Positions 18,646-39,428 of a DNA stretch of 60,462 nucleotides are shown in pieces. Each line of letters starts with the position of its first letter. Position 1 is the first letter of the stretch. The stretch spans positions 1 through 60,462 of the forward strand of contig JAFUGM010000019.1 in NCBI GenBank assembly GCA_017469355.1. Direction: 5' to 3'. Made by a program: the position numbers and the translations under genes. The DNA comes from Solobacterium sp. (GTDB lineage: Bacteria; Bacillota_I; Bacilli_A; Erysipelotrichales; Erysipelotrichaceae). The notes under the pieces are model-generated. The model did no database searches, was not told where the DNA came from, and saw only the letters and a program-made list of their open reading frames with translations.

Positions 18646-18651
18646 ATCGCT

Positions 18652-18890
18652 AAAGCGAAGAAGTGGAGTAGTACTGCCGCAACAGCTTTGAAGCGAGCCC
18701 AGTATGGTGAAAGTGGGTAAAGGAAAGCTGCAGGAACGTGCCATGGAGTGCATTCACGAAGGAAACCGAGTGAATGACGTAGAGACCGCGTTAAGGGAGA
18801 AAGAGTCCGGAAACCATGGGGTTCCGGGAAGAAAGGTGGCAACGCGCATGATTCGTCCTTTAGGCTTTATGGCTTAAAGGACGTTTTATT
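18652..18890 (+). promoter_or_regulatory. T-box riboswitch, predicted arginine specifier (CGU)
   Basis: All T-box landmarks are readable. Stem I has an AGTA box at 18667-18670. Its distal pairing is CAGCTTT/AAAGCTG with the GCGAG loop motif between. The specifier loop is GAACGTG at 18734-18740, between helix strands GCAG and CCAT, which makes CGT (18737-18739) the specifier codon, followed by the usual purine. Stem III is GGAAACC/GGTTCC. The T-box AAAGGTGGCAACGCG is at 18832-18846. The terminator CGTCCTTTA/TAAAGGACG with TTTTATTTT is at 18854-18892. Uncharged tRNA-Arg binding would favour the antiterminator and read-through into argG. Specifier assignment is inference from folding by eye. Confidence 0.88.
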
Positions 18891-18989: not shown

Positions 18990-20213
18990 ATGAAAAAAGA
19001 AGATATCAAAAAAGTAGTGCTCGCTTACAGCGGAGGTCTTGACACCTCCATCATCATTCCCTGGCTGAAGGAAAACTATAACAACTGTGAAGTGATTGCG
19101 GTTTCAGGAAATGTCGGACAGGCTGATGAACTGGAAGGACTGGAAGAAAAAGCAAAGAAGACTGGTGCCTCCAAGCTCTATGTCCTCGATCTTACCGATG
19201 AATATGTGAATGACTTTATTCTTCCCTGTGTAAAGGCAGGTGCCAAATATGAAGACTATCTGCTGGGAACCAGTCATGCTCGTCCGATCATCGCTAAGGG
19301 ATTGGTTGAGATCGCACTCAAGGAAGGCGCAGATGCGATCTGCCATGGATGCACGGGAAAAGGAAATGACCAGGTAAGATTCGAACTTGCGATTAAGCAT
19401 TTCGCTCCCAACATGCCGGTCATCGCACCCTGGAGAGAGTGGCCCATCAAATCCAGAGATGAGGAAATCGATTACGCAGAAGCCCATAACATTCCGCTGA
19501 AGATCTCCCGTGAGACCAACTACTCCAAGGATAAAAACCTCTGGCATCTGAGCCATGAGGGACTGGATCTTGAAGATCCGGGAAATGAACCGCTTTATGA
19601 AAAGCCGGGATTTCTGGAAATGGGTGTTTCTCCGTTAGAAGCTAAAGATGAACCGGAATATATCGAACTTGCGTTTGAACAGGGAATTCCTGTCAGCCTG
19701 AATCAGGAGAAACTGACTCCCAAGGAGATTGTGCTGAAGCTGAATGAAATCGGCGGGCGCAATGGTATTGGCCTGCTTGACATCGTGGAAAACCGGCTGG
19801 TCGGTATGAAGAGCAGAGGTGTCTATGAGACGCCGGGCGGAACCATTCTCTATGCGGCGCATGACTACCTTGAAACCATTACACTCGATAAGCTGACCGC
19901 ACATAAGAAGGCGGAACTGGCTCTGACATTTGCGGATCTTGTCTATAACGGACAGTGGTATACACCGCTTCGTGAAGCGCTCTCCGCATTTGTGGATAAG
20001 ACTCAGGAACGGGTCAGCGGAAGTGTGAAACTGAAGCTGTATAAGGGGAATATCATCAAGGCAGGTGTCTTCAGTGAGTATTCTCTTTACAGTGAGGATC
20101 TTGCGTCCTTCGGTGAGTCTGACTACGATCAGAAGGACAGCGCTGGATTCATCAACCTCTATGGCCTGCCGATCAAGGTTCAGGCTCTTGCGGATCAGAA
20201 ACATAACAAATAA
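18990..20213 (+). CDS. argG: Argininosuccinate synthase
   Basis: A 407-residue enzyme joining citrulline and aspartate with ATP to give argininosuccinate. The ATP-binding P-loop AYSGGLDTS (about 10-18) and the [13 protein letters not shown] segment (about 118-130) are diagnostic, and the length is normal. It is the first gene of the arginine operon, controlled by the upstream T-box and probably the arginine-rich leader. The ribosome site AAGGAAGG starts at the leader stop codon. argH follows after 12 nt. Confidence 0.97.
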
Positions 20214-20225
20214 CAGGAGGCTTCC

Positions 20226-21617
20226 ATGGCAAAACTGTGGGCAGGAAGAACAGACGGTGCGACCGATCAGATCGCCGATGATTTCAATTCTTCGATCCGG
20301 GTGGATCAGAGAATGTATAAGGAAGATATAACGGGATCGATCGCGCATGCGAAGATGTTAAAAAAGCAGAATATCATTCCCGTAGAAGCAGCGGATCATA
20401 TCATTTCCGGACTGGAAGGGATCCTTGCGGATATGGAGGAAGGACGCTTATTACCCGACCCGGCAAGTGAAGACATCCACATGTTTGTGGAACAGGTACT
20501 GACGGAACGGATCGGTGATGAAGGCAAGATGTTACATACCGCCCGCAGCCGCAATGATCAGGTAACACTCGATACGAGATTGTATCTGCGAGGGCAGTCC
20601 GAAGTGATCCGGGAAAAGATTCTGGATCTCATTGAGGTATTGAATGAGGGAGCGGAGCGCTATAAGGATGTGATTCTTCCTGGATATACGCATATGCAGA
20701 GGGCACAGCCCATTGTCTTTGGTCATCATCTTCTGGCTTATGTCATGATGCTCTTGAGGGATGTTGGCAGATTACAGGATTGTGAATCCAGAATGAACGA
20801 GTCTCCCATCGGTGCCTGTGCGCTGGCGGGAACCACATATGATACGGACCGGGATTATGAGGCAGCGCTGCTTGGCTTTGATTCAGTGAGTCAGAACAGC
20901 CTCGATAGTGTTTCAGACCGGGACTATTGTCTGGAATTACTCAGTGCGCTGTCCATTCTGATGATGCATCTGTCACGCTTTTCCGAAGAATTGATTCTCT
21001 GGTCAAGCTGGGAGTTTGGATTTGTTGAACTGTCAGATGCCTATACCACAGGCTCTTCCATCATGCCGCAGAAAAAGAACCCGGATATGGCAGAACTGAT
21101 CCGTGGAAAAACCGGACGGGTGTATGGTGACCTGATGGGGCTGCTTACGACCATGAAGGGAATTCCTCTTGCCTATAACAAAGACATGCAGGAAGATAAG
21201 GAACCGGTATTCGACGCGGTCGATACCGTGAAGATCTGCCTGGATGTTCTGACACCGATGGTAGATCAGATGACGGTTCATGAAGATCGCATGGCCGAAG
21301 CGGCACGCCGTGGATTCATCAATGCGACGGATGTCGCAGACTATCTTGTAAAAAAGGGAATGCCATTCCGTCAGGCATATAAGATCTCCGGCTCTCTTGT
21401 TGCACTATGCATTCAGAAGGATCTGGTGTTGGAGCGCCTTCCGTTAGAAGAATATCGGCAGTTCTCGGATCTGTTTGAAGAAGATCTCTATGAGGCGATT
21501 GACCTTCGCCATGCGGTAAATACCCGTATTTCCAAAGGCGGAACCGGTATCGCTTCTGTGGAGGCGCAGATCGACTGGGTGAAGGAACAGCTTGTGAATT
21601 TGAGGGGGAACAGATGA
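20226..21617 (+). CDS. argH: Argininosuccinate lyase
   Basis: A 463-residue member of the fumarase/aspartase superfamily that splits argininosuccinate into arginine and fumarate. Its signature GSSIMPQKKNPD is at about residue 277, with HTARSRNDQV near 107. The ribosome site AGGAGG is at 20215-20220. Its TGA overlaps the argC ATG (ATGA), which implies translational coupling. Confidence 0.97.
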   Translation: MAKLWAGRTDGATDQIADDFNSSIRVDQRMYKEDITGSIAHAKMLKKQNIIPVEAADHIISGLEGILADMEEGRLLPDPASEDIHMFVEQVLTERIGDEGKMLHTARSRNDQVTLDTRLYLRGQSEVIREKILDLIEVLNEGAERYKDVILPGYTHMQRAQPIVFGHHLLAYVMMLLRDVGRLQDCESRMNESPIGACALAGTTYDTDRDYEAALLGFDSVSQNSLDSVSDRDYCLELLSALSILMMHLSRFSEELILWSSWEFGFVELSDAYTTGSSIMPQKKNPDMAELIRGKTGRVYGDLMGLLTTMKGIPLAYNKDMQEDKEPVFDAVDTVKICLDVLTPMVDQMTVHEDRMAEAARRGFINATDVADYLVKKGMPFRQAYKISGSLVALCIQKDLVLERLPLEEYRQFSDLFEEDLYEAIDLRHAVNTRISKGGTGIASVEAQIDWVKEQLVNLRGNR

Positions 21618-35465: not shown

Positions 35466-36167
35466 ATGATGAAGGAAACGATTTTCTTTGACCTGGATGG
35501 GACTTTGTTGAAACTGGATCAGACCGAATTTACCAACCGGTATTTCTACCTGCTTGGACAGTATATGATTCCCTATGGATTTGAGCCGGAACAACTAATG
35601 AAAGATGTCTGGAAGGGCACATATGCGATGGTGAAAAACGACGGATCCATGACCAACGAAGCGCGTTTCTGGCAGGTATTTACCGGTCTTACCGGGCGCG
35701 GGAACCCAGAGGATCAGGAAAGCTTCCTGGAGTTTTATAAAACTGATTTCTGCATAGCTAAGGATGTGACTGCTCCGGTAGAAGGGGTGAAGGAACTCAT
35801 TGCGGAGTTGAAAGCGAAGGGATATGAGCTGGTTCTTGCGACAAATCCATTGTTTCCCCGTATCGCAACCCTGAACCGGATTGGATGGGCAGATCTTTCT
35901 CCGACTGATTTCCGCATGATTACCACCTATGAAATGATGAATACCTGTAAACCGAATCCGGAGTATTACCGGGAGATCTGCCGTAAGCTTGACCTTGACC
36001 CGAGCCATTGCCGAATGGTTGGAAATGATGCGGTAGAAGATACTGCCGCAGAAGCCGCAGGAATCCGCACCTTCCTGATTACGGATTGTCTGGAAAACGC
36101 CCCGGAAGGGGAACTGAGCGTTCCTCATGGCTCTTGGAACGAGCTTAGGAACTGGCTTGGACTCTGA
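35466..36167 (+). CDS. HAD-family hydrolase
   Basis: About 233 residues with all HAD motifs: FFDLDGTLL at the N-terminus, VLATNP (motif II), TCKPNPEYY (motif III) and MVGNDAVEDTAAEAAGI (motif IV). The helical cap lies between motifs I and II (C1 type). It probably dephosphorylates a small metabolite. The start ATG 35466 has AAGGAAG 5 nt upstream; ATG 35469 is equally possible. It is divergent from the EamA gene. Confidence 0.87.
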   Translation: MMKETIFFDLDGTLLKLDQTEFTNRYFYLLGQYMIPYGFEPEQLMKDVWKGTYAMVKNDGSMTNEARFWQVFTGLTGRGNPEDQESFLEFYKTDFCIAKDVTAPVEGVKELIAELKAKGYELVLATNPLFPRIATLNRIGWADLSPTDFRMITTYEMMNTCKPNPEYYREICRKLDLDPSHCRMVGNDAVEDTAAEAAGIRTFLITDCLENAPEGELSVPHGSWNELRNWLGL

Positions 36168-36210
36168 GAAATTGATCATCTTTTTGAAAACTGTTTCTGA
36201 AACATATTTC

Positions 36211-36239
36211 TTGACATGTCAATTTCGGGGTGGTAAAAC
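36211..36239 (+). promoter_or_regulatory. Promoter of the cysteine importer operon with a palindrome over the -35
   Basis: Consensus TTGACA (36211-36216) and TAAAAC (36234-36239) are 17 bp apart. The -35 lies inside a perfect 12-bp palindrome TTGACATGTCAA (36211-36222), which could be an operator. Confidence 0.6.
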
Positions 36240-36263
36240 TGTCGATGAAGAAAGGAAGACCGT

Positions 36264-36353
36264 ATGTTAGTGAGAAGCTCTGCAGTCTGTATCTGTCTCT
36301 GCTGTCGTATGTGTAAGTGCACATTGTTTTCTCATGCGGTCGGAAACTTCTGA
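36264..36353 (+). CDS. Cysteine-rich leader peptide (29 codons) of the cysteine importer operon
   Basis: A short ORF with ribosome site AAAGGAAG (36251-36258) 5 nt before ATG. The peptide begins MLVRSSAVCICLCCRMCKC: six Cys among codons 9-19 (9, 11, 13, 14, 17, 19). It stops at TGA 36351-36353, upstream of an intrinsic terminator and a cysteine-type ABC importer. The ORF looks like an attenuator leader: low Cys-tRNA would stall ribosomes on the Cys codons. An alternative pairing of 36317-36324 with 36388-36395, which breaks the terminator stem, is possible (8 bp, two wobbles). Translation and mechanism are inferred, but codon content, position and target agree. Confidence 0.8.
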   Translation: MLVRSSAVCICLCCRMCKCTLFSHAVGNF

Positions 36354-36379
36354 GACATAGTCAGAAAAGAAGGAAAGTG

Positions 36380-36404
36380 ACGGGCGCATGTGTGCCCGTT
36401 TTTG
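36380..36404 (+). terminator. Attenuator terminator before the cysteine importer
   Basis: ACGGGCGC/GTGCCCGT (8 bp, one wobble) with loop ATGT is followed by TTTTTG. It lies between the Cys-rich leader and the first permease gene. A smaller hairpin TTCTGA/TCAGAA (36348-36366) spans the leader stop codon. Confidence 0.85.
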
Positions 36405-36434
36405 TTTGAACTGAAAGGAAAGGAGAGAGCCGTA

Positions 36435-37094
36435 ATGAATACAGCCATATTAATAGAATATCTGCCGTTATTTGCCAAAGCAGCGGTCGTGACACTTAAG
36501 ATCAGTCTGGCCGGGATCGCGGTATCTCTGCTTGTCGGACTGTTATGCAGTTATATTCAGTATTTCAGGATTCCTGTCCTGTCTCAGATTGTACAGGTAT
36601 ATATCGAGCTCAGCCGGAATACGCCGATGCTGGTGCAGTTGTTCTTCATCTATTTCGGACTTCCCAAGATCGGTATTTCCTGGAGTCGGGAAACCTGTGC
36701 GGTTGTCGCACTGGTATTTCTCGGAGGCAGTTATATGTCGGAGGCCATTCGATCTGGCCTTGAGGCAGTGGAGCCGGTTCAGACCGAATCTGCGGTAAGC
36801 CTTGGCATGAGCCCGTTTCAGGTAATGCGCTTCGTGGTAATTCCCCAGGCAATGGCCGTATCCTTTCCGGCAGTTGTCGCAAATATTGTGTTTCTGATCA
36901 AGGAGACCTCAGTGGTTTCCGCGATCGCATTGGCAGATCTCATGTATGTGGCCAAGGATCTGATTGGGAATGACTACAATACCCAGGAGGCATTGTTCAT
37001 GTTGGTAATGTTCTACCTCATCATCCTGCTTCCGGTATCGATTCTGTCTTCTGTTGCGGAAAGGAGGATACGCTATGCCGGATTCGGGTATTAG
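36435..37094 (+). CDS. Amino acid (cysteine/cystine) ABC transporter permease 1
   Basis: A 219-residue polar-amino-acid-type permease with about five membrane helices. The EAA-loop is visible as SAVSLGMSPFQVMRFVVIPQA (about 125). The start ATG at 36435 follows AAGGAAAGGAG. It overlaps the second permease by 20 nt. Cysteine or cystine specificity is inferred from the binding protein and the Cys leader. Confidence 0.9.
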   Translation: MNTAILIEYLPLFAKAAVVTLKISLAGIAVSLLVGLLCSYIQYFRIPVLSQIVQVYIELSRNTPMLVQLFFIYFGLPKIGISWSRETCAVVALVFLGGSYMSEAIRSGLEAVEPVQTESAVSLGMSPFQVMRFVVIPQAMAVSFPAVVANIVFLIKETSVVSAIALADLMYVAKDLIGNDYNTQEALFMLVMFYLIILLPVSILSSVAERRIRYAGFGY

Positions 37095-37749
37095 CATCCT
37101 CTTCACGGGAAGTAACTTCTGGCGATTACTTCAGGGGTTATGGGTCACCATCCAGATTTCCTTGATTTCCGTGGGACTCTCATTTGTATTCGGAACGTTA
37201 TTCGGATTATTGATGACGGTGAAAAACCGGGTGGTGAAAGCCTTCTGCTGGCTGTATCTGAACTTCATTCGAATCATGCCGCAGCTGGTGCTTCTGTTTC
37301 TGGTCTACTTTGGTGTCACCAGACAATGGCGGATTAACCTCTCTGCCTGGACCAGTGCGATTCTCGTATTTACGCTCTGGGGCACGGCTGAGATGGGAGA
37401 TCTGGTACGCGGCGCATTGACTTCCATTCCGGTTCATCAGTATGAAAGTGCAGCGGCACTTGGCATGGACAGGAAGCAGACCTTCCGGTATGTCATTCTT
37501 CCGCAGACGATTCGCAGACTGATCGCACCGTCGATCAATCTGATTACGCGTATGATCAAAACCACATCTCTGGTCGAGATCATCGGTATGGTAGAGGTCC
37601 TGAAAACAGGGCAGCAGATTATAGACGCAAACCGCATGAAGTTCCCCACTGGCGCGCTGTGGGTGTACGGAGCGGTGTTCCTGCTATATTTTCTGGTTTG
37701 TTGGCCAATCTCGAGTCTGGCCAGAAAACTGGAGGAAAAACGGAGGTAA
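37075..37749 (+). CDS. Amino acid (cysteine/cystine) ABC transporter permease 2
   Basis: About 224 residues, paralogous to the preceding gene, with the EAA-loop segment SAAALGMDRKQTFRYVILPQ. The start ATG 37075 (MPDSGISILF) lies inside the end of permease 1. Two permeases, one ATPase and one binding protein make a complete importer. Confidence 0.9.
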   Translation: MPDSGISILFTGSNFWRLLQGLWVTIQISLISVGLSFVFGTLFGLLMTVKNRVVKAFCWLYLNFIRIMPQLVLLFLVYFGVTRQWRINLSAWTSAILVFTLWGTAEMGDLVRGALTSIPVHQYESAAALGMDRKQTFRYVILPQTIRRLIAPSINLITRMIKTTSLVEIIGMVEVLKTGQQIIDANRMKFPTGALWVYGAVFLLYFLVCWPISSLARKLEEKRR

Positions 37750-37752
37750 GTG

Positions 37753-38517
37753 ATGAGCAATGAAATTCAGCTTTCTGTGAAAGATCTGGTAAAGAGCTAT
37801 GAAGGAACAAGTGAAGTTCTCAATGGCGTTTCGCTGGATGTTCACAAAGGTGAAGTTGTGGTGATTCTCGGACCATCCGGCTGCGGGAAATCCACGCTGC
37901 TTCGATGTATGAACGGGCTGGAAGCCTATCAGGGAGGTTCCATCACCCTGAATGGGGAGCTCGTGACAAAAGACGGAAAAAACATGACGGCACTGCGTCA
38001 GAAGATCGGAATGGTGTTTCAGAGTTATGATCTGTTTCCTCATCTGACGATTGAGGAAAATGTCACTCTGGCTCCGATCCGGGTTCAGAAGCGATCGAAA
38101 GAAGAAGCCTCCAAAGAGGCACGCGAACTTCTGGAACGGGTAGGTCTTCTGGATAAGAAAGATGTTTACCCCCGCCAGTTATCCGGCGGGCAGAAACAGC
38201 GGGTCGCAATCGTTCGTGCCCTCGCCATGCATCCGGAAGTGATGCTGTTTGACGAGGTGACGGCGGCGCTGGACCCGGAAATGGTAAGGGAGGTTCTTGA
38301 TGTCATGCTCGGTCTGGCCGAGCAGGGTATGACCATGGTCATCGTGACACACGAGATGAACTTCGCTCGGGCAGCAGCGGATCGCGTGGTATTCATCGAT
38401 CAGGGAACGATTGTTGAGGAGGCATCTCCGGATGAATTCTTCGATCATCCTAAAACCGATCGGGCTGCGCGTTTCCTGAAAACATTCACCTTTGAATCAA
38501 AACGAACTAAGGGATAA
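37753..38517 (+). CDS. Amino acid (cysteine/cystine) ABC transporter ATP-binding protein
   Basis: A 254-residue ATPase with Walker [10 protein letters not shown] (about 40), Q-loop [12 protein letters not shown], signature LSGGQKQR, Walker [13 protein letters not shown] and the switch His in VTHEM. ATG 37753 is preferred over the GTG three bases before it because GGAGG (37742-37746) is then 6 nt away. The usual Pro after the Walker B Glu is replaced by Val. Confidence 0.94.
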
Positions 38518-38531
38518 GGAGAGAAATTATC

Positions 38532-39428
38532 ATGAAAAAACTGAACACATTAGCAGCACTTACAGCACTTTCACTTCTTGCTGGATGCGGTTCTGCAGCA
38601 TCAGAACCGGTCACACCGGATACCCCGGACGTATCCGAACCGGCTACCGAAACAACTACAGAAACAGTTGTTTACCGCACACTGGATGAAATCAAGGATT
38701 CCGGCACAATCCGTATCGGCGTATTCTCCGATAAGGCACCGTTTGGCTATGTCAATGAAAACGGCGAATATGACGGATATGATGTCTATTTCGCAGAGCG
38801 TATTGGACAGGATCTCGGCGTTGATATCGAGTATGTATCTCTCGATCCGGCAAACCGTGTAGAATTCGCTGAAACCGGTAAGGTTGATATCGTTCTTGCG
38901 AACTTCACAGTTACCGCAGAGCGTGCTGAAAAGGTTGACTTCGCACTTCCTTACATGAAGGTTCAGCTCGGCATCGTTTCTTCTGAAGCAGATCCGATCA
39001 ATGATGTCAGCGACCTTGAAGGAACAGGAAAAGAACTGATTATCGCAAAGGGAACCACCGCTGAGACATACTTTGAAAACAATCATCCGGATGTCGTTCT
39101 CCAGAAGTATGACGCATACGCAGACGCATACAATGCACTTCTTGACGGACGCGGCGCAGGCCTTTCTACCGATAACACAGAAGTTCTCGCATGGGCTGCA
39201 GTAAATCCTGGATTTGTCGTAAATGTTGCGGCACTTGGTGATGTGGATACCATCGCTCCGGCTGTATCTAAGGGCAACACCACGCTGCTTGAGTGGATCA
39301 ATGATGAAATCGTTTCTCTGGCAGATGAAGAATTCTTCCTCAATGACTATGAAGCAACACTGCGAGAGGTCTATGGTGAAGAATCCAACGCTTATGATCT
39401 GATCGTCGAAGGCGGCGTGATCGACTAA
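38532..39428 (+). CDS. Cysteine ABC transporter substrate-binding lipoprotein (CjaA-like)
   Basis: A 298-residue lipoprotein with lipobox LLAGC (Cys about 19) and a Thr/Glu/Pro linker to about 48. The solute-binding domain carries IRIGVFSDKAPFGYV (about 61), EYDGYDVYFAERIGQDLG, ANRVEFAETGKVDIVLANFT and VDFALPYMKV. This string resembles CjaA of Campylobacter, a cysteine-binding protein, and its Bacillota relatives. It agrees with the Cys-rich leader at the head of the operon. It is the last gene and is followed by a terminator. Confidence 0.88.
   Translation: MKKLNTLAALTALSLLAGCGSAASEPVTPDTPDVSEPATETTTETVVYRTLDEIKDSGTIRIGVFSDKAPFGYVNENGEYDGYDVYFAERIGQDLGVDIEYVSLDPANRVEFAETGKVDIVLANFTVTAERAEKVDFALPYMKVQLGIVSSEADPINDVSDLEGTGKELIIAKGTTAETYFENNHPDVVLQKYDAYADAYNALLDGRGAGLSTDNTEVLAWAAVNPGFVVNVAALGDVDTIAPAVSKGNTTLLEWINDEIVSLADEEFFLNDYEATLREVYGEESNAYDLIVEGGVID

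Follow-up and report, generated by a model that had tools for sequence, protein, structure and literature searches.

The window, that is, the whole stretch of DNA analysed here, comprises 60,462 nucleotides of a Solobacterium sp. contig. A four-gene importer operon (permease, permease, ATPase and binding protein) is located at 36435-39428 and is preceded by a short cysteine-rich ORF and a hairpin. The features of the locus are the following.

36211..36239, + strand: promoter, TTGACA (36211-36216), a 17-nt spacer and a TG-extended TAAAAC (36234-36239), assigned from its recurrence in relatives
36253..36258, + strand: leader ribosome-binding site AGGAAG, assigned from sequence; GGGAG or GGAAG in relatives
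36258..36266, + strand: region 1, GACCGTATG, overlapping the ribosome site and start codon; predicted to pair with region 2; identical in five genus members
36264..36353, + strand: leader peptide ORF with six Cys codons at 36288, 36294, 36300, 36303, 36312 and 36318
36317..36324, + strand: GTGCACAT, a segment named in the first-pass annotation; possible antiterminator extension in this species only
36333..36341, + strand: region 2, CATGCGGTC, at the end of the leader ORF; predicted partner of region 1 or region 3; invariant in the alignment
36379..36404, + strand: intrinsic terminator (3:4 hairpin and T tract), assigned from a terminator scan, folding and its presence after related leaders
36385..36390, + strand: region 3, CGCATG, in the terminator 5' arm and loop; predicted antiterminator partner of region 2; kept in relatives
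36435..37094, + strand: amino-acid ABC transporter permease 1
37075..37749, + strand: amino-acid ABC transporter permease 2
37753..38517, + strand: ABC transporter ATPase (GlnQ/TcyN type)
38532..39428, + strand: substrate-binding lipoprotein, nearest solved structures 1xt8 and 2yjp

The leader ORF has 29 codons and translates to MLVRSSAVCICLCCRMCKCTLFSHAVGNF, with Cys at positions 9, 11, 13, 14, 17 and 19. Its length, ribosome site and Cys positions had been given in the first-pass annotation and were confirmed by translation and by the AGGAAG at 36253-36258. The importer is thus preceded by a short ORF that combines a ribosome site with a run of codons for a single amino acid, as expected of an attenuator. 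An alternative start in another frame, the ATG at 36245, was rejected because relatives lack that ATG. No second ORF of this kind was present in the 60-kb window when ORFs of 10-60 codons on both strands were searched for at least five Cys in 11 codons, and at least five Cys in 10 codons was reached by 2 of 3000 base-shuffles of the leader region. A strict consensus promoter scan of the leader region reported no promoter; in four close relatives, TTGACA and TGN-TAAAAC, or near forms of them, occupy the same place, separated by 17-18 nt.

The best solved-structure matches of the binding protein were 1xt8 (4e-69), the cysteine-binding CjaA of Campylobacter, and 2yjp (1e-67), a cysteine-binding protein of Neisseria. 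The resemblance to CjaA noticed earlier is therefore borne out. Since the binding protein did not reach the NCBIfam equivalog cut-offs, the two structural matches and the leader itself are the basis on which we infer cysteine as the importer substrate. Rfam gave no family match over 36180-36440 up to an E value of 1. A Cys T-box riboswitch was rejected as an explanation of the leader, as there was no match to RF00230, and a SAM or other sulfur riboswitch was rejected for lack of any Rfam riboswitch match. Elsewhere in the window, a T-box leader (RF00230, 100 bits) is located at 18649-18863 on the + strand, before argininosuccinate synthase- and lyase-like genes (argG and argH) at 18990-21617.

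The intrinsic terminator that had been noted between the leader and the first structural gene was found both by the terminator scan and by folding. Its stem has nine pairs at 36379-36400, followed by the T tract, and its folding energy is -15.2 kcal/mol. Two further pairings compete for region 2. In the 1:2 pairing, GACCGTATG (36258-36266) pairs with CATGCGGTC (36333-36341), and in the 2:3 pairing, CATGCG within CATGCGGTC pairs with CGCATG (36385-36390). The leader RNA was folded in both ribosome states. With the RNA free from 36315 (ribosome stalled at Cys13) and the terminator 3' arm incomplete, folding predicted 2:3; once the ribosome was placed at the stop codon, the terminator alone remained. 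With the full 3' arm, the stalled-state RNA at equilibrium still favoured the terminator by about 1 kcal/mol (-24.4 versus -23.2 for the antiterminator), so the switch must be kinetic. As modelled, this kinetic switch resembles known attenuators. The window's own 2:3 duplex was not significant (shuffle p 0.075, swap percentile 0.195), which counts against the attenuator reading.

Importer homologues at E 1e-50 or better were found in 10 of 70 genomes of the genus. Five genus members, the window included, have GACCGTATG and CATGCGGTC at fixed spacing; in the genus search this element occurred in one copy per genome and always upstream of the importer. The four close relatives L093, L095, L096 and L097, whose importers are 78-82% identical, have the promoter, leader, GACCGTATG, CATGCGGTC and terminator in common. 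The open frame and the Cys cluster are maintained in these four and in L088, L089 and L092, so that the check on Cys codons in homologous leaders, now run, came out positive in seven genus relatives. The leaders of the more diverged L088, L089 and L092 are different Cys-rich leaders, also with terminators. Genus member L090 has no Cys leader and L091 has only two Cys, which counts against the attenuator reading.

In the alignment of the five members (mean identity 71%), CATGCGGTCGGAA forms 13 consecutive invariant columns, fourfold-degenerate codon positions included. Site-by-site covariation cannot be shown because the paired bases are invariant among the close relatives. The ACGGG-GCATG of the terminator is retained in the genus alignment, and region 3 is CGCATG or TGCATG in all close relatives. 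In L096 the terminator stem is rearranged, with most of GCATG outside the stem, and GCATG is still present, which argues for a second partner of this segment.

The first-pass annotation had proposed an alternative pairing between GTGCACAT at 36317 and ATGTGTGC at 36388, the latter placed in the terminator 3' arm. The two segments are complementary, but the conserved antiterminator segment is CATGCGGTC, with CGCATG or GACCGTATG as its partner. As a general switch GTGCACAT:ATGTGTGC was rejected as not conserved: L093, L095 and L097 lack it, and in L096 it is broken, with GTGCAC retained but TGTGC lost from the terminator. ATGTGTGC is part of the 3' arm but also extends over the hairpin loop. The idea that a ribosome at the stop codon covers GTGCACAT did not hold. 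Usual ribosome footprints would place a ribosome at the stop codon (36351) over roughly 36333-36365 rather than over 36317-36324, which fits region 2 and not GTGCACAT. The fold with a forced antiterminator holds the conserved 2:3 pairs plus GCACA:TGTGC, and these additional pairs may lengthen the conserved antiterminator helix in this species.

To place the leader in a wider context, 75 distinct homologous importer loci from genomes were sampled and their upstream ORFs scored for Cys in 10 codons. At least four Cys were found upstream of 19 of the 75 importers (shuffle mean 0.96, maximum 3) and at least five upstream of 13 (shuffle mean 0.08). Among 253 control regions upstream of other genes in the same loci, the corresponding numbers were 2 and 0. 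Examples of these leaders are MTFRSNRNMNTCCCCCCCMACHRASLMCVEFHPGR (L079), MRANSSTANMNQACCCCCCCMDIHIAALACR (L041), MKKFLMSCCCGCCCEMYDGTSLCSALIRRN (L089) and MMNILVNKNMCCCSCCSIFAYKYIYMCPPVQLITA (L033). An intrinsic terminator follows about 20-70 nt past the stop codon in nearly all homologous Cys leaders. One exception is the leader MQYVQGFEAQRNCCCCAPCCACCCLCV of a Bifidobacteriaceae MAG (L076), which is located upstream of a homologous importer and, like the Actinobacterial Cys leaders described earlier, has no clear intrinsic terminator. At most of the distant importers, about 50 of the 75, no Cys leader is detectable; this counts against the attenuator reading and indicates that regulation varies among lineages. 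For 28 homologous loci lacking a clear Cys leader, Rfam gave neither a T-box nor a riboswitch upstream of the importer.

The pattern SD-ATG-CysCysCysCys was searched for, with no gene specified, in 273 genomes from the same family, and many in-frame short leaders were obtained. Twenty in-frame-looking ones, chosen by eye, were retrieved, and cysteine synthase (cysK) was located downstream of 18. Of the other two, one precedes an unrelated membrane protein and the other (L172) is not this kind of leader. Because these 20 had been picked by eye, the test was repeated on 55 automatically chosen loci, which contained 12 short Cys-run ORFs; cysteine synthase follows eight of the 12, and the importer follows one (L111). 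The recovery of cysteine synthase in 18 of 20 and 8 of 12 cases indicates, at the level of sequence, that the regulatory codons predict the function of the downstream gene. The genes behind these leaders thus make the amino acid of the regulatory codons or, by prediction, import it. This genome's own cysK-like genes showed no Cys leader, which counts against the attenuator reading. In a phylum-wide scan with the pattern, mostly out-of-frame Val/Leu/Ala runs were obtained, and inspection by eye revealed no in-frame Cys leader beyond the family.

The cysK loci of the family (L154-L171) carry Cys-run leader peptides with terminators upstream of cysteine synthase, and the tail of the leader, often CCCGGA, pairs with both the leader's ribosome-site region and the terminator 5' arm. 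At G217:C64 (L153, L127), a Cys leader and terminator resembling those of cysK are followed by a membrane-protein-like frame near the contig end, not by cysK. In two related genomes (L120, L121), a 10-codon ORF, MQPLCCCCSS, has an AGGA resembling a ribosome site; it is followed by an ORF other than a cysteine gene and may be due to chance.

The pairings were also evaluated over 40 leaders in 28 sequence clusters, by comparing each leader's own duplexes with duplexes whose partners were swapped between clusters. The 2:3 duplex was better than with swapped partners (KS p 7e-8), and so was the 1:2 duplex (KS p 5e-5); these values are approximate, as the KS test assumes independent clusters and uniform pooled percentiles under the null. 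The control 1:3 duplex was no better than with swapped partners over the 28 clusters (p 0.2). Against shuffles, p for 2:3 was 0.05 or lower in 19 of the 40 leaders that had been placed in the importer or cysK group. The 1:2 and 2:3 pairings are thus conserved in five genus members and better than swapped over 28 clusters, as an attenuator would require, and the same 1:2:3 logic with different sequences is statistically supported across the leader clusters.

These results indicate that the locus is very probably a transcription attenuator of the trp/his type with Cys regulatory codons upstream of the importer. Cysteine-responsive leader-peptide attenuation, as first suggested for this locus, is supported by Cys-rich leaders above chance, conserved pairings and the terminator. 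Sequence comparison brings out the leader and its Cys enrichment, the terminator, the conservation of the 1:2:3:4 complementarity and the association with cysteine genes, and from these we infer ribosome positions, kinetics and the response to cysteine. Transcription probably starts just downstream of 36239. When Cys-tRNA is ample, the ribosome would run to the stop codon and cover region 2 (36333-36341), the terminator (36379-36404) would form and the importer would remain untranscribed. When Cys-tRNA is scarce, the ribosome would stall in the Cys cluster (36288-36320), covering region 1 and leaving region 2 free. Region 2 could then pair with region 3 (36385-36390) before the terminator 3' arm is made, and with 2:3 formed RNA polymerase would read into the importer operon. 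In an untranslated leader, 1:2 would form and the terminator would win. The leader and RNA switch thus probably turn the importer on under cysteine shortage.

The hairpin could instead be a mere terminator of the upstream HAD-hydrolase gene, which ends at 36167, with the Cys-rich ORF as a chance frame, and by reading no clear terminator is located between that gene and the leader. However, the conserved TTGACA/TAAAAC promoter sits between the two, the silent sites of the leader tail are invariant, and Cys-rich leaders with unrelated sequences recur upstream of homologous importers and cysK, all of which make this explanation extremely unlikely. Conservation of the leader tail bears also on whether the nascent peptide, as an arrest peptide or a metal- or thiol-binding peptide, senses cysteine or redox state rather than the Cys-tRNA supply. 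The His-Ala-Val-Gly tail, which is conserved in the close relatives, would fit such a role. The conserved stretch is nevertheless invariant at fourfold-degenerate third positions as well and is complementary to regions 1 and 3, and apart from Cys no peptide motif is common to the other Cys leaders, so that sensing by the peptide is judged highly improbable.

Actinobacterial Cys leaders have been proposed to act mainly via translation initiation or Rho; terminator hairpins are missing from the Mycobacterium leaders, for which a Rho-dependent mode has been considered (PMC1262725). If the leader worked in this way, the hairpin would be secondary. In the loci studied here, however, almost all leaders are followed by a strong hairpin and T tract, and the leader tail is complementary to the 5' arm of that hairpin. 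We regard this mode as very unlikely here and retain the trp/his-type attenuator as the preferred reading.

Taken together, the data suggest that Bacillota probably have a cysteine-specific leader-peptide regulon, in which importer and cysteine synthase genes of Erysipelotrichaceae each have their own attenuator and importers in Clostridia lineages have similar leaders. The leader sequences are too unlike each other to point to simple descent, so this switch probably originated or was rebuilt repeatedly in the absence of other cysteine controls (T-box, CymR). By sequence, many other gut and rumen Bacillota have related leaders upstream of cysteine genes. The literature search, with most subscription papers outside its reach, found no Cys leader attenuator described in Bacillota, in agreement with the earlier impression of little or no previous description. 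The Cys attenuator is thus a known type of control in a phylum and before genes for which no description was found, and the evidence for a small regulon is good. In Bacillota, where T-boxes are the usual assumption, cysteine thereby joins the amino acids sensed by ribosome-mediated attenuation. Such leaders also allow one to predict, among uncharacterised amino-acid ABC importers and cysK copies in gut and rumen bacteria, those that cysteine limitation induces, and they offer a sequence-only route to importer substrates, in that the leader names the amino acid.

The trp and his attenuators of E. coli consist of four segments with 1:2, 2:3 and 3:4 logic and regulatory codons in the leader. The leader described here has the same logic and placement of codons but differs in that region 1 overlaps its own ribosome site and start codon, and in its amino acid and import gene. 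Within the order Erysipelotrichales, to which this Solobacterium also belongs, His-leader attenuators were proposed in six species; those of his operons are described for Erysipelotrichales, Peptostreptococcaceae and the Bacillus cereus group (PMC9413887). They are likewise leader-peptide attenuators with terminator and antiterminator, but have His codons before a biosynthesis operon, and the main text does not mention cysteine. The His leader of hisS/hisZ in Bacilli (PMC2965389) is also an ordinary amino-acid leader peptide that in Firmicutes stands in for a T-box, but it serves genes of the aminoacyl-tRNA synthetase family.

For cysteine, ribosome-mediated attenuation was proposed for the uORFC-8-2 motif before cysS in Rhodobacterales (PMC8632094). 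This motif shares a short ORF with tandem Cys codons and a following intrinsic terminator, but it is alphaproteobacterial, precedes an aminoacyl-tRNA synthetase gene, has two Cys codons and is unrelated in structure. Polycysteine leaders, mostly without terminators, were proposed in Actinobacteria for the cys operon (Mycobacterium, P. acnes) and cbs (B. longum) (PMC1262725), and judging from its title, the study of Canestrari et al. 2020 (cited in PMC13236596) found mycobacterial Cys leaders to respond to cysteine. These leaders likewise have runs of Cys codons upstream of cysteine genes. The mycobacterial ones are described as leaderless, without a ribosome site, and have no terminator hairpin, whereas the leader in the window has both a ribosome site (36253-36258) and a terminator (36379-36404), and its assignment to the leaderless polycysteine type was rejected for this reason.
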